Both the position numbers and the translations under genes were made by a program. Shown here piece after piece: positions 31,322 through 36,771 of a DNA stretch of 64,000 bases. Origin of the DNA: Alishewanella aestuarii B11 (lineage in GTDB: Bacteria; Pseudomonadota; Gammaproteobacteria; Enterobacterales; Alteromonadaceae); NCBI RefSeq assembly GCF_000280055.1, contig NZ_ALAB01000043.1:1-64000 (forward strand), in the 5' to 3' direction. Position 1 is the first letter of the stretch. Each line of letters starts with the position of its first letter. The notes under the pieces were generated by a model. That model saw only the letters and a list, made by a program, of their open reading frames with translations, searched no databases and was not told where the DNA came from.

Positions 31322-32392
31322 ATGCTCGACTGGCTAAAAAAGTGGTACACCAATAAGTTTTCTGATCCGCAGGTTGTTACTTTATTTCTGATCCTGGTTT
31401 TGGGTTTTCTTGGCATCTACTGGTTAAGCGGGATGCTGGCGCCAGTACTGGTATCGATTGCTGTTGCTTATCTGCTGGAGTGGCCGGTTTCAAAATTATG
31501 CCGCATGGGACTCAGCCGTACTCTGAGTACATCCGTTGTGGTGCTGGGGTTTATGGGGGTACTGACATTAGTATTAATGTGGATAGTGCCGCTGGCCTGG
31601 TATCAGGGCCGGAACCTACTAAAAGACTTGCCGCAGATGATTGAGCTGGGCCGGACCTATTTGCTCGAGCTGCCAGAGTTACTGCCTGGCATGGTCAGTG
31701 ACGAGCAGATCCTGTTACTGATGCACTCGGTTGAAGAGCGGGTGATGGCCTTTGGCCGTCAGATGCTGTCGATGTCACTGGCGTCACTGGTCAATCTGGT
31801 AGCGTTGCTGATTTATCTGGTGCTGGTGCCGGTAATGGTGTTTTTTATGTTAAAAGATAAAGCACAGCTGATCAGTGGCTTTGTGCAGTTCCTGCCGAAC
31901 GAGCGTAAGCTGATTGGCCAGGTCTGGCATGAAATGAACGTGCAGATCATGAACTATATCCGCGGCAAGATGCTTGAGATCCTGATTGTCGGCGCCGTCA
32001 GTTATCTGGTGTTTTACTTGTTTGGGCTGAACTACGCACTGTTACTGGGGATCCTGGTTGGTTTATCCGTCCTTATTCCTTATATCGGTGCTGCCGTCGT
32101 CACCTTACCGGTGGCAGTGGTGGCGCTGTTCCAGTGGGGCTTTACCGCGGAATTTGGCTATCTGATGCTGGCCTATGCCATTATTCAGGCGCTGGATGGT
32201 AATGTACTGGTACCGTTGCTATTTTCCGAAGTGGTCGATCTTAATCCGGTTTATATTATCGTGGCGGTGCTGTTTTTTGGCGGCTTGTTCGGCTTCTGGG
32301 GGGTATTCTTCGCTATCCCGTTGGCGTCTTTGGTCAAAGCCACGGCCAAAGCCTGGTCTGAGCGGCTGCATCCGACCGAATCTGCCGCCTGA
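31322..32392 (+). CDS. perM: PerM/AI-2E family permease
   Basis: A 356-residue inner-membrane protein of the AI-2 exporter-like (PerM/TqsA) family with about eight hydrophobic segments. The start MLDWLKKWYTNKFSDPQ at 31322 matches the E. coli PerM N-terminus; an in-frame ATG at 31280 would add 14 residues without support. Conserved parts include APVLVSIAVAYLLEWPVSKL and LIPYIGAAVVTLPVAVVALFQWG. Function in this subgroup is uncertain: family members export autoinducer-2 or act in ion homeostasis. In Shewanella-like genomes perM is often beside bepA and bcp, as here. A long hairpin follows. Confidence 0.88.
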   Translation: MLDWLKKWYTNKFSDPQVVTLFLILVLGFLGIYWLSGMLAPVLVSIAVAYLLEWPVSKLCRMGLSRTLSTSVVVLGFMGVLTLVLMWIVPLAWYQGRNLLKDLPQMIELGRTYLLELPELLPGMVSDEQILLLMHSVEERVMAFGRQMLSMSLASLVNLVALLIYLVLVPVMVFFMLKDKAQLISGFVQFLPNERKLIGQVWHEMNVQIMNYIRGKMLEILIVGAVSYLVFYLFGLNYALLLGILVGLSVLIPYIGAAVVTLPVAVVALFQWGFTAEFGYLMLAYAIIQALDGNVLVPLLFSEVVDLNPVYIIVAVLFFGGLFGFWGVFFAIPLASLVKATAKAWSERLHPTESAA

Positions 32393-32406
32393 CCGGCTCC
32401 TGTCGC

Positions 32407-32438
32407 AGCATAAGCAGTGCGTTGGCACTGCTTATGCT
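32407..32438. terminator. Bidirectional hairpin between perM and the TonB receptor gene
   Basis: A perfect 14-bp stem, AGCATAAGCAGTGC (32407-32420) with its complement at 32425-32438, and a 4-base loop, between convergent genes. It lacks a T run, but its length and position suggest termination. Confidence 0.6.
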
Positions 32439-32520
32439 CATGATGCGTTGCTAAGCCTTATCATACCTGAGGTGTTATCAGGCGACTTAGCAAAAAGTAC
32501 TTACCATGGCTTGCCACAAT

Positions 32521-34536
32521 TTACCACAAGTAATCCAGATTGATACCGGCACTGAGCTGCCGGCCAGGCGCGCTTTCAAAGGCCCGGCCATTGCTTTGAT
32601 TCACCACCACAGCGCCGACATTATTGCGGTCGGTCAGATTCTGCAGTTGCAGCCAGCTGCGTACTTGCCATTGCCCCAGTTGCTGCGTGCTGTGCAGTGA
32701 CAGATCGAAGCTAAGGCTTGCCGGGGCGAAGTCGCTGTTTTGATCATTAATCGCGATCTGATCGCGGTAACGGCTGGTCCACTCCAGAAACAGCGGCCTG
32801 GTTAACCAGGGTTGCCAGCTTAATTGCCAGTGGCTATCCAGCCTGGCGACACCGGGAATACGCTTGCCGGCAAGTTCGGCACTATCGAATTGTGCATCCA
32901 GATAGGTTAGTGCGACTTGCTGTGATAAGGCCGGTGTAAGTTGTTGCTGCCAGTAAAACTCCAGTCCCTGGCGGGCGGTCGCACCGGCGTTACGAAAGCT
33001 GGTACGGCCGTTGTCTGAGCTGGCAACCAGTAACTCATCGCTGCTGCGGATGCTAAAGGCACTGACACTAAAACGCGCTCGGCTGGCAGCATATTTGACA
33101 CCGCTCTCCCACTGGCGGTTTTCGCTGGCCAGCAGTGCCAGATTCAGGCCACTTCCCTCAGGTTTATATGCCAGCTCTGCCAGGGTCGGGGCTTCAAACC
33201 CCAGTCCTGTGCTGATAAACCAGGACAACGAGTCATTGAGCCGGTAATTCAAGCCCATAGCGGCCGCCTGTTGATAGTAATTTTTACGGCCACTATCATC
33301 CGGGTTAGCACCCTGAATAAAACGGTCCCGGATCTGATAACTCAGCTCGGTATAACGCAAACCAGCATCAACACTTAGCTTTGCTGTTGCTTGCCAGTGC
33401 AAACGCCAGAACAGATCGCGATTCTCCGCCAGATTGGTTTCATCGCGGCGCAAATCACCACGTTGCCCAAAATTGTTGACGAAACCCTGGCGCTCATCAT
33501 CACTACTTACCCAGGCACCACCTACGGTACTTTGCAGGACGTCTGTAAGGCGCCAGCTATATTGACCATTCACGCCCTGATATTGCCTATCCAGTGCTAT
33601 ATCACCGCCAGCTGAGGTAATGGCTGCCCCGGTAAAGGCGAGGCGTTGCGTGACTTCACGCTCACCGCGCCATAGCGCCAGTTGCCAGGGGCTGTGACCG
33701 CTTTGTTGCAGAGCCAGGCTAAGTTGGCGTTGCCGGGTGCTTTTCGTGGTATCGAATTGTTGTGCCTGGCTCACGGTTTGTTTCGGATCGGCGCGCCACT
33801 GTGTTGGCGTGAGGCTGAGCGGATCCTGTAATAAGGGGTCGTAGGCGAAGTCCAGTCGCAGACTGGCGCTTAGCGAGTCTGAAAGCTGTGTTTGCCAGAG
33901 ACCCTGCAGTTGTTGCTTGCGGGCGGCAGAATGCGGGCGAAAGCCATCGCTTTCAAAGTGCTTTGCCGCCAGGCTAAGCTGATGCTGGCCGAGCTGTTGT
34001 CGGCCCGCTAACTGGTATTGCTGATGCTGCTGACTGACTGCCAGCGCTGTCCCGGCGCGTGCCGTGGCCTCAGTTGCGGTGCGCAAGGCAATGACCCCGC
34101 CAGCGCCATTACCATAAAGTACTGCCAGTGGCCCGCGTAACACCTCGATTTCGGCAATATTATCCAGTAACACACTGGATAATTGCCCCTGACCATCGGG
34201 CGCGGAAATTGGAATACCATCCTGTGACAAATAGATCCCGCGCACGCCAAAGGCGCTGCGACTGCCAAAACCGCGAATACTCAGCCGGGTGTCCTGCGCG
34301 AAGTTCGCGCGGCTGTCGACCTGTAAGCCCGGAATACCCTGCAGTAACTGGCCACTATCAATTAACAGGCCACTGCGGGGCAGAGCGCGGACTTCGATAC
34401 TTGCTGCGGCATCCAGCCAGCGTTGCTGCTGGGCATTGGCGGTAATAACAATGACTTCAGGCGTCTGAGCCAGAGCGCCAGACGATACCGCCAGCATAAT
34501 GCTGGCGGTAACAGGTTTTAGACTAGGCCCCGGCAT
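32521..34536 (-). CDS. pqqU: TonB-dependent receptor, PqqU/YncD-like
   Basis: A 671-residue outer-membrane receptor with a signal peptide ending near SSGALAQ, a plug domain (LLQGIPGLQVDSRANFAQD, LSIRGFGSRSAFGVRGI, DGIPISAPDGQGQ, IEVLRGPLAVLYGNGAGG) and a 22-strand barrel ending NLDYLW. By memory the segments GFGSRS, DGIP-PDGQGQ, DDSG, GFEAPTLAELAY, GRTSFRNAGATARQG and VNQSNGRAFESAPGR closely follow E. coli YncD, recently shown to import pyrroloquinoline quinone and renamed PqqU. It overlaps by one base with the PQQ-dependent dehydrogenase gene upstream, strong context for PQQ uptake. Alternatively it takes up another small cofactor or siderophore. Confidence 0.85.
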   Translation of the reverse strand: MPGPSLKPVTASIMLAVSSGALAQTPEVIVITANAQQQRWLDAAASIEVRALPRSGLLIDSGQLLQGIPGLQVDSRANFAQDTRLSIRGFGSRSAFGVRGIYLSQDGIPISAPDGQGQLSSVLLDNIAEIEVLRGPLAVLYGNGAGGVIALRTATEATARAGTALAVSQQHQQYQLAGRQQLGQHQLSLAAKHFESDGFRPHSAARKQQLQGLWQTQLSDSLSASLRLDFAYDPLLQDPLSLTPTQWRADPKQTVSQAQQFDTTKSTRQRQLSLALQQSGHSPWQLALWRGEREVTQRLAFTGAAITSAGGDIALDRQYQGVNGQYSWRLTDVLQSTVGGAWVSSDDERQGFVNNFGQRGDLRRDETNLAENRDLFWRLHWQATAKLSVDAGLRYTELSYQIRDRFIQGANPDDSGRKNYYQQAAAMGLNYRLNDSLSWFISTGLGFEAPTLAELAYKPEGSGLNLALLASENRQWESGVKYAASRARFSVSAFSIRSSDELLVASSDNGRTSFRNAGATARQGLEFYWQQQLTPALSQQVALTYLDAQFDSAELAGKRIPGVARLDSHWQLSWQPWLTRPLFLEWTSRYRDQIAINDQNSDFAPASLSFDLSLHSTQQLGQWQVRSWLQLQNLTDRNNVGAVVVNQSNGRAFESAPGRQLSAGINLDYLW

Positions 34537-35657
34537 CAGTTAGCGGCTGCCCGTAACCGTAACAGTTGACCATTGGCCTGATCGGTTAACAGATAAACAG
34601 CGCCATCGGGACCCTGACGGACATCGCGGATCCGCTGCCCGATCATAATACGTTCCTCATGACTGACTTTGTCGCCATCCAGCTCTAAGCGCACCAGTTG
34701 CCCGAAACGCAGCGAGCCTACCAGCAGGTTGTTTTGCCAGCCCGGAATGGCGTCGCTTAAGTAGAACGCCATACCACTTGGTGCAATCGAGGGTGTCCAT
34801 TTATGCAGTGGTTGTTCCATACCGTCTTTCTCGGTTTGGCCGATTTTGCCGCCACCGTATTCTTCACCATAGGTGATCACCGGCCAGCCATAGTTTAGTG
34901 TTGCCCGGGCGATATTAATTTCATCGCCACCCTGAGGACCATGCTCATGGGTCCAAAGCTCGGCGGTCGTCGGATGCAGCGCTGCGCCCTGAATATTGCG
35001 ATGACCATAAGACCAGATGTCATCCAACACCGCGCTGTCCTTTACATAAGGGTTATCCGCCGGGATCTGGCCATCCAGTTCCAGGCGTACTACCTTGCCG
35101 TGATGGGTATCAAAGGTCTGGGCATCATGGCGCCGGGCACCGCGATCACCTAAGGTCACGAACAGCTTACGATCCGGTGTTACCACCAGACGGCTGCCAA
35201 AATGATGCCGGCTGGCGAATTTTGGCTGGGCACTAAAGACGACTTTAACATCACTCAGGCCCGTCTCACCGAGGGTAGCAAGCGCTACGGCTGTGCTACT
35301 GGTATTTTCGGCGCCTGGCTCGGTATAGCTAAGATAAATTTGCCGGGTGGTCGCAAAGTCCGGATGTAAAATCACATCCAGTAAACCACCCTGACCAGCG
35401 GCCAGTACGGTAGGAACACCCGTTAACGGCTTGCTCAGCTCGCCATTGGCGCTGACATAACGAAGATTGCCGTTACGTTCGGTGACCAGCATGCGACCGT
35501 CTGGTAAAAAGGCTAATCCCCACGGATGTTCCAGACCCGTTGCTACGGTATCCATTTGCAGTGTGGCCTTTTCGGTGTTCAGCTGTTGCGCCACTGCGCT
35601 TAGTGAGGTGACGAGTAAACCTAAAGAGAGTAGTGAGAGACGTAACGTCTTGTTCAT
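34536..35657 (-). CDS. yliI: PQQ-dependent soluble aldose sugar dehydrogenase (YliI/Asd type)
   Basis: A 373-residue exported six-bladed propeller enzyme that oxidises aldose sugars with PQQ in the periplasm. A signal peptide (LLSLGLLVTSLSAVAQ) is followed by PWGLAFLPDGRMLVTERNG, SRHHFGSRLVV with the catalytic-type His, VTLGDRGARRHDAQ, YGHRNIQGAALHP and TYGEEYGGGKIG. The length matches E. coli YliI (371). No PQQ biosynthesis gene (pqqA-E) is seen here, so the cofactor may be scavenged, and the PqqU-like receptor gene immediately downstream (one-base overlap TGATG) would supply it. Confidence 0.92.
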   Translation of the reverse strand: MNKTLRLSLLSLGLLVTSLSAVAQQLNTEKATLQMDTVATGLEHPWGLAFLPDGRMLVTERNGNLRYVSANGELSKPLTGVPTVLAAGQGGLLDVILHPDFATTRQIYLSYTEPGAENTSSTAVALATLGETGLSDVKVVFSAQPKFASRHHFGSRLVVTPDRKLFVTLGDRGARRHDAQTFDTHHGKVVRLELDGQIPADNPYVKDSAVLDDIWSYGHRNIQGAALHPTTAELWTHEHGPQGGDEINIARATLNYGWPVITYGEEYGGGKIGQTEKDGMEQPLHKWTPSIAPSGMAFYLSDAIPGWQNNLLVGSLRFGQLVRLELDGDKVSHEERIMIGQRIRDVRQGPDGAVYLLTDQANGQLLRLRAAAN

Positions 35658-35772
35658 ATTCAGCTCCTGTTGCGAGCAGCCAGGCTGCCATTTGATATCG
35701 TTTCAGATACTAGCAGCAGGGTGAACTGCTGCCCAAGCAAGATCCGGTAACTTGACCCGGTTTAGCGGCGAA

Positions 35773-36240
35773 TTAAGACTTCAGGTAGTCCAGCACCACC
35801 TGGTGATGGTTACTGGTTTTGAAATTATCAAATACCTTAGCGATGCTGCCGTCCTGATTGATCAGGAAACTGACACGATGCAGGCCATCATACTCTTTGC
35901 CCATAAACTTCTTGGGTCCCCAAACACCAAAGGCTGCTGCAACCTGATGCGTTTCATCGCCGAGCAGCAGAAAATTCAGCTGGTCGCGCTGGGCAAACTT
36001 GGCAAGTTTGGCGGGGGCATCGGTGCTGATACCCACCACAGTGACACCGAGCGCCTGTAGTTCGGCGTTGCTATCGCGCAGCGCACAGGCTTGTACTGTG
36101 CAACCCGGGGTCATCGCTTTCGGGTAAAAATACAGTAACACTCTGCTTTGTTGCAGTAAGGCTGACAGCTTGGTTGGTTGTTGCTGTTGATCGGGCAGCG
36201 TAAAGTCGGGCGCCTGCTGGCCGGCAGTCAGTGTTTGCAT
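35773..36240 (-). CDS. bcp: Thioredoxin-dependent thiol peroxidase Bcp
   Basis: A 155-residue peroxiredoxin of the BCP/PrxQ type that reduces peroxides using thioredoxin. The peroxidatic Cys is in YPKAMTPGCTVQACALRD, and the second cysteine five residues later is the resolving one, as in E. coli Bcp. It follows gcvR by nine bases and is probably in one operon with it; this gcvR-bcp pair, divergent from dapA, is conserved in gammaproteobacteria. Confidence 0.95.
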   Translation of the reverse strand: MQTLTAGQQAPDFTLPDQQQQPTKLSALLQQSRVLLYFYPKAMTPGCTVQACALRDSNAELQALGVTVVGISTDAPAKLAKFAQRDQLNFLLLGDETHQVAAAFGVWGPKKFMGKEYDGLHRVSFLINQDGSIAKVFDNFKTSNHHQVVLDYLKS

Positions 36241-36249
36241 AATGTATCC

Positions 36250-36771
36250 TTATTGTTGGGCCTGAAAGTGTCCGCTCAGGCCAAGTTGCTGCATTAAACC
36301 GGTTAATTCTGTTGCAATAATGCTGGCGTTTACGCCTTCGGGTAGCTCCAGTGTCATCTGGGTGTGCATCATTATTTTGTCTTGCTCGGTAAAGGTTTCA
36401 GATTGCAGTGAGCCGATATAAATATTGTGGCTGGCTAGCAAACCGGTAATAGCGCCGAGCGTACCAACCCGATCTGGACCGCTATAGTCCAACACATAAT
36501 GTGCAACCACCTGGGTGCGCGGACGGCCTGTTGTACGTTTTGTCATGGTAGTCAGATCAAGCTCTAAGCCCAGAGCGGGTAATAAATGCTCAATGCGACT
36601 GATGGCGGCCAGATCGCCGGCCAGTAACATAATAAAGGTAAACTCACTACCAAAGATTGCCATCCGGCTATCGATTATATTGCAGTTACATTCGGTAACC
36701 AGTCGCGCCAGTTTACTGACAATGCCGGTGCGGTCTGGGCCAATGGCGGTCACAACCAGTTGTTGGGGCAT
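36250..36771 (-). CDS. gcvR: Glycine cleavage system repressor-like protein GcvR
   Basis: A 173-residue protein of two ACT domains without a DNA-binding domain. The first begins VVTAIGPDRTGIVSKLARLVTECNCNI, the second VLDYSGPDRVGTLGAITGLLASHNIYI. In E. coli GcvR binds GcvA and glycine to repress gcv genes. The position beside bcp and divergent from dapA is the standard one. Whether a GcvA exists here cannot be seen. Confidence 0.9.
   Translation of the reverse strand: MPQQLVVTAIGPDRTGIVSKLARLVTECNCNIIDSRMAIFGSEFTFIMLLAGDLAAISRIEHLLPALGLELDLTTMTKRTTGRPRTQVVAHYVLDYSGPDRVGTLGAITGLLASHNIYIGSLQSETFTEQDKIMMHTQMTLELPEGVNASIIATELTGLMQQLGLSGHFQAQQ

Follow-up and report, generated by a model that had tools for sequence, protein, structure and literature searches.

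We describe a pair of adjacent genes that very probably form a two-gene operon for scavenging the cofactor pyrroloquinoline quinone (PQQ). The pair lies in a 64,000-nucleotide stretch of the genome of Alishewanella aestuarii B11 (contig NZ_ALAB01000043.1, positions 1 to 64,000), and this whole stretch is called the window below. The upstream gene encodes a predicted PQQ-dependent aldose sugar dehydrogenase of the Asd/YliI type, and the downstream gene a TonB-dependent receptor resembling PqqU, the PQQ importer of E. coli (Table 1). Judged from their sequences, the receptor would import outside PQQ and the linked dehydrogenase would use it. This reading is carried by the identities of the two genes, their key residues, their arrangement, the absence of any match over cut-off for pqqB, pqqC or pqqE in the genome, and the conservation and recurrence of the linkage. 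From these we infer the ligand of the receptor, the use of PQQ by the enzyme, the substrate, the co-expression of the two genes and the source of the PQQ.

In the proposed mechanism, trace PQQ would be captured by the receptor at the cell surface, in a pocket of the PqqU type with carboxylate-binding arginines and a stacking aromatic residue, and TonB would power the passage of PQQ into the periplasm. There PQQ and a metal (Ca2+ by analogy) would activate the exported apo-dehydrogenase, which would oxidise aldose sugars and pass the electrons to some acceptor. The N-termini of both proteins look like signal peptides when judged by eye. The one-base overlap of the dehydrogenase TGA with the receptor ATG suggests translational coupling, through which synthesis of the importer would probably be tied to that of the enzyme. 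The PQQ itself would be released by other bacteria.

Identity of the receptor and the dehydrogenase

An earlier note on this DNA, made from the letters alone, had proposed the two open reading frames with the receptor start overlapping the dehydrogenase stop, and both the coordinates and the overlap agree with our analysis. It had also likened the receptor to YncD/PqqU over plug and barrel. In a domain search the plug (PF07715) and the barrel (PF00593) both scored over cut-off, and the best solved relatives of the receptor are the E. coli YncD/PqqU structures 6v81 and 9c4o (about 1e-107), well ahead of any other structure (1.5e-10 at best). The alignment with E. coli PqqU has 238 identities in 663 aligned columns (36%). 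The PqqU model of NCBIfam, NF041535, is the top model of the receptor, ahead by 358 bits, and it matches three other signature-bearing receptors tested with 375-453 bits.

The PqqU signature was given by Munder et al. 2025 (PMC12124388, cited throughout from its main text) as Y/F/W99, R304 and R365 in E. coli numbering, and the receptor has F96, R293 and R349 at these positions. It also keeps K265, R511, Q81, Q118, Q297 and Y457, corresponding to E. coli K274, R536, Q84, Q121, Q308 and Y481. That main text names 11 PQQ-contact positions (the paper's own count is 12), and the receptor agrees at 9 of them, with F counted for Y. The two changed positions are Q310, which becomes L and falls in a gap column in a second alignment, and N477, which becomes A; E. 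coli PqqU variants at Q310 and N477 (also printed N447) grew like wild type (PMC12124388). In the same study PqqU was solved with PQQ and mutants of its pocket were tested, those at K274, R304, R365, R536 and aromatic 99 being impaired in E. coli. High-affinity PQQ binding and TonB-dependent uptake by the window receptor are predicted on this homology and on the E. coli genetics.

Two genome samples were used for comparison, 98 genomes of the family (own included) and 369 genomes of the class. The signature is complete in 13/13 receptors of the family, and in 49 of 52 aligned rows, E. coli included. Among the class-sample PqqU, the K274 position is Glu or Gln in many remote members, and Glu at this position has been noted in PqqU (PMC12124388); the R304 position is Lys or Thr in three (G236, G241, G361). 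The window receptor thus shares with E. coli PqqU the receptor family, the length, the signature residues and the six further residues listed above. Their neighbourhoods differ: pqqU of E. coli adjoins mcbR and yncE, not yliI, whereas the window receptor gene adjoins a gene for a YliI-type dehydrogenase.

The earlier note had called the dehydrogenase YliI-type, an identity which holds. The protein belongs to PF07995 (GSDH) with 458.3 bits against a gathering cut-off of 25 (2.1e-137), and E. coli YliI (2g8s, 9.1e-100), with which it has 47% identity, is the nearest protein of solved structure. When it is aligned with the soluble glucose dehydrogenase (sGDH) of Acinetobacter (1c9u), His152 corresponds to His144, Arg220/Asn221 to Arg228/Asn229 and Arg342/Arg344 to Arg406/Arg408. 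The Gly-Pro of the EHGP motif is kept, and the position of sGDH Gln246 is His, as in YliI. Arg228 counts among the PQQ-binding arginines of sGDH. The catalytic role of His144, and the contacts of Arg408 and Lys377 with PQQ, Lys377 pairing with a PQQ carboxylate, are described for sGDH in PMC6881789. In E. coli, YliI is one of two PQQ enzymes known, and after reconstitution with PQQ it oxidises glucose (PMC13088180). PQQ-dependent sugar oxidation is the activity predicted for the window enzyme.

The window dehydrogenase and YliI/Asd have in common PF07995, the catalytic His, the Arg/Asn residues and the EHGP motif. YliI differs in having Glu at the D163 position of sGDH (Asp in the window) and Lys at position 377 (Arg in the window), and yliI is unlinked to pqqU in E. 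coli. Acinetobacter sGDH is of the same family by sequence (1.1e-37), with the His144 and Arg406/Arg408 positions kept in the window enzyme. Its chain is longer, with 454 aa and longer loops against 373 aa, and the window dehydrogenase stays under the cut-off of the sGDH subfamily model TIGR03606 (155.9 vs 434.55 bits).

Linkage and co-occurrence in the family and the class

In the family sample, PqqU was found in 13/98 genomes, all 13 of which carry PF07995 and none of which carries pqqC. The dehydrogenase gene lies directly upstream of pqqU on the same strand in 12 of these 13 genomes, and in 11 of the 12 linked pairs the gap is at most 8 bp or the genes overlap. Random adjacency would be expected in about one in a thousand genomes, a rough figure from some 3,000 genes per genome; chance adjacency of the pair is ruled out by the 12/13 family pairs together with the recurrence in four other families. 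The unlinked case is G081, where the dehydrogenase stands at the bcp-perM site (L099) and pqqU elsewhere (L098). A bcp-perM dehydrogenase without pqqU is also present in G042 (L112), whose pqqU lies elsewhere beside a second, different dehydrogenase (L103). Judging from these two bcp-perM sites, a dehydrogenase may stay in place while pqqU is gained or lost beside it. The pair adjoins bcp in five genomes (own, G017, G063, G083 and G045). Nine other genes of the window were looked for around the remaining seven linked pairs, and the stretches retrieved contained none of them. A tree of 61 dehydrogenases groups the linked ones together and requires six changes of state, at least two of which are forced by well-supported branches; the linkage has therefore been gained or lost more than once. 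One genome of the same genus, G097, has neither pqqU nor PF07995, the pair having been lost or never gained there.

In the class sample, only the top three candidates of each genome were scored for PqqU and for the eight-bladed quinoprotein family TIGR03075, and members of either may have been missed. PqqU was found in 38/369 genomes. PF07995 (E <= 1e-40) is present in 33/38 genomes with PqqU and in 98/331 without (Fisher p 7e-12), and at E <= 1e-80 the counts are 29/38 and 77/331. When the three genomes failing the signature at position 304 (G236, G241, G361) are moved to the other side, the counts become 30/35 and 101/334 (p 2e-10). Among genomes without TIGR03075, PF07995 occurs in 17/18 with PqqU and in 72/282 lacking PqqU too (16/18 vs 54/282 at E <= 1e-80), and the 17/18 is unchanged by moving the same three genomes.

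The direct linkage also recurs outside the family. In four genomes from other families, the Asd-type gene lies upstream of pqqU (G275, 27 bp), downstream (G419, 3 bp; G221, 4-bp overlap) or divergent from it (G360, 66 bp). Two more class genomes, G136 and G204, have a remote PF07995 neighbour of pqqU, and 30 others have no PF07995 neighbour in the stretches fetched, which extend at most about 8 kb per side and in several cases end at contig ends. In G135 (L088, G135:C310), a TIGR03075 quinoprotein gene lies by coordinates within about 0.5 kb of pqqU on the same strand; the presumed PQQ user is a different one there, and the logic of the arrangement is unchanged.

Points against the operon reading and its rivals

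Several results weigh against a scavenging operon. With NF041535 the receptor scores 458.2 bits, far under the equivalog cut-off of 1200, compared with 1311.7 for E. coli PqqU; since this cut-off is missed and the signature is present, we call the receptor PqqU in the residue-signature sense and not as the narrow NCBI equivalog. In the dehydrogenase, the position of sGDH Lys377 is occupied by Arg317. The same position in 21 aligned sequences holds 9 Arg (the window's included), 8 Lys (YliI included) and 4 Ala (the second copy in the genome included), and it is therefore no strict family mark. The genome counts are not independent by descent, and for the class a count by family (26/29 vs 62/153, p 9e-7, with 182 families taken from numbering) lessens this dependence and does not remove it. 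Moreover, pqqC occurs in 14/38 class genomes with pqqU and in 37/331 without; pqqU alone is therefore no proof of scavenging, and PqqU in the class also accompanies synthesis. An Asd-type neighbour of pqqU is found in only 5/38 class genomes, the own genome and the four from other families.

The association of PqqU with the dehydrogenase was also set against a BtuB-type receptor control (TIGR01779, E <= 1e-60), which is present in 96/203 genomes, 22/203 over the curated cut-off; the 203 are G000, G001 and G098-G298 of the 369, as inferred from numbering. This receptor is itself weakly associated with the dehydrogenase (41/96 vs 30/107, p 0.04), a further point against the operon reading. Among BtuB-type carriers, PF07995 occurs in 10/12 genomes with pqqU and in 31/84 without (p 0.004). 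The explanation that genomes rich in TonB receptors simply carry the dehydrogenase was rejected, as the BtuB association is weak and the pqqU effect persists among BtuB-type carriers.

The chief reservation is that 53/98 genomes of the family have PF07995 (E <= 1e-80) but neither pqqU nor pqqC, which lowers our certainty that the dehydrogenase depends on the receptor. In those genomes enough PQQ may diffuse in, another importer may be at work, or PQQ may not always be needed. In the 40 of the 53 that were examined, no PqqU-type receptor stands beside the best dehydrogenase gene. For these 40, the idea that the dehydrogenase has an overlooked receptor next to it was considered and rejected, the only candidates being a neighbour at L151, without the signature, and a receptor at L118 about 1.5 kb off.

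The main users of imported PQQ might lie elsewhere, as a second PF07995 enzyme or some other protein, and the dehydrogenase next to the receptor would then be one client among others or a bystander. The genome does have a second PF07995 gene (G000:C12:14465-15451; L110:7840-8967), whose product is 44% identical to the linked dehydrogenase and has Ala at the Lys377 position, and the linked dehydrogenase is therefore not the sole candidate PQQ user. No TonB-dependent receptor was found in the 10.3-kb stretch surrounding this second gene. Mainly other users would also fit the 33/38 class genomes without an Asd-type gene beside pqqU within the stretches fetched, and the bcp-perM dehydrogenases without pqqU in G081 and G042. 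Nevertheless, a bystander is unlikely to be kept adjacent in nearly all family pairs, mostly at such short distance or overlapping, and across several dehydrogenase lineages. We regard this reading as unlikely, and it is the best placed of the rivals.

Still less probable is a pairing of transporter and catabolic enzyme, in which the receptor would bring in a sugar acid or an oligosaccharide for the dehydrogenase to act on. Adjacency alone cannot separate a substrate from a cofactor, and one locus of the family sample has another receptor in a comparable place: at L151:2855-6481, about 45 bp separate a PF07995-type dehydrogenase gene from a downstream gene for a TonB-dependent receptor, which has G, M and L at the signature positions and no NF041535 match at 1e-20. 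An importer of a different kind may here accompany an enzyme of the same type. What speaks against substrate import in the window is that K274, R304, R365, R536 and the aromatic residue at 99 are all kept, as they are in 13/13 family receptors, and that, of the homologues whose ligand is known, the nearest is a PQQ importer.

The earlier note had also argued for cofactor piracy, having seen no PQQ synthesis genes in the window. The host genome comprises 3,588,054 bases in 43 contigs and is rated 100% complete, and the lack now extends to all of it for the three genes searched, pqqB, pqqC and pqqE (pqqA, pqqD and pqqF were not searched). The best pqqB match in the profile search has E 0.38, under cut-off, and the best pqqE match reaches 54.8 bits where 381.35 are required; neither gene had a match over cut-off in 14 control genomes, a positive control being available for pqqC only. 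No pqqC was found in the genome, the same search being positive in 5/98 family and 51/369 class genomes. A complete pathway, which the note had named in advance as a finding that would contradict it, was accordingly not found, with pqqB, pqqC and pqqE all lacking a match over cut-off. Probably the cell has no PQQ of its own making and relies on what other bacteria release. Piracy is further supported by the receptor signature, the catalytic residues and the pairing, which is conserved in the family and has strong statistics in the class, the neighbours as the source being suggested by the missing synthesis genes. That the cell makes PQQ and the receptor merely recovers what leaks, as proposed for PQQ producers (PMC12124388) and as the 14 class pqqU genomes with pqqC would allow, is hardly credible here, with no pqqB, pqqC or pqqE over cut-off in a genome rated complete and pqqC in 0/13 pqqU genomes of the family.

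The genome contains three TonB C-terminal domains, one PqqU and two PF07995 genes. No eight-bladed quinoprotein was found, meaning that TIGR03075 gave no match at 1e-30 when 3 of the 6 candidates were scored (E. coli control positive; PF01011, PF13360 and PF13570 not searched).

Relation to known PQQ scavenging, and the locus

PqqU, its signature and PQQ scavenging without synthesis are already known, and E. coli requires PqqU only at low PQQ concentration (PMC12124388). The families PF01011, PF13360 and PF13570 describe eight-bladed quinoproteins. These three, with one profile from another study, are the ones named in the methods of the survey of 1861 genomes by Munder et al. 2025, in which only 23% of PqqU carriers had synthesis genes and 67% had a dehydrogenase predicted to depend on PQQ; for carrier groups without a dehydrogenase, it proposed another role of the cofactor, such as antioxidant, or an overlooked enzyme (PMC12124388). 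Six-bladed Asd-type enzymes have no sequence homology with eight-bladed quinoproteins (PMC6881789). As the survey names other Pfams, PF07995 users may have been missed, or its extra profile may cover PF07995. The words 'adjacent', 'Asd', PF07995 and YliI do not occur in its main text, and no description of a pqqU-dehydrogenase operon was found among the open-licence PMC papers searched. In Burkholderiales, four genomes have pqqU in synteny with pqq synthesis genes (PMC12124388), whereas in the window the pqqU-like gene stands with a presumed user and synthesis genes were not found.

We have not come across the conserved dehydrogenase-pqqU arrangement in print, and it brings with it an explanation for the missing PQQ users that can be put to the test. 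We lean slightly towards the view that Asd-type dehydrogenases of PF07995 are these missing users in many pqqU bacteria recorded without a quinoprotein, and that the operon is a self-contained scavenging cassette assembled more than once in the class. If PF07995 enzymes do use imported PQQ, much of the missing-user gap of the survey may close, and the operon, if correctly read, would offer a genetically simple way of testing how a cell depends on others for a cofactor.

Table 1. Features of the dehydrogenase-pqqU locus, in window positions.
Feature	Position	Strand	Remarks
pqqU-like TonB-dependent receptor, predicted PQQ importer	32521..34536	-	second gene of operon; 671 aa; from homology and residue signature
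asd/yliI-type GSDH (PF07995), predicted periplasmic PQQ-dependent aldose sugar dehydrogenase	34536..35657	-	first gene; 373 aa
TGA stop of dehydrogenase	34536..34538	-	shares its final base with the start of the receptor ATG (34536-34534)
bcp-dehydrogenase intergenic region, presumed promoter region	35658..35772	-	115 bp; no consensus promoter found

At the junction the letters read ...AAC TGATG CC, with one A common to TGA and ATG. A promoter scan of 32300-36300 gave nothing usable: one promoter-like site, on the + strand inside the receptor gene, compared with a mean of 2.1 in shuffles. A near-identical locus (99-100%) is carried by Alishewanella jeotgali KCTC 22429.

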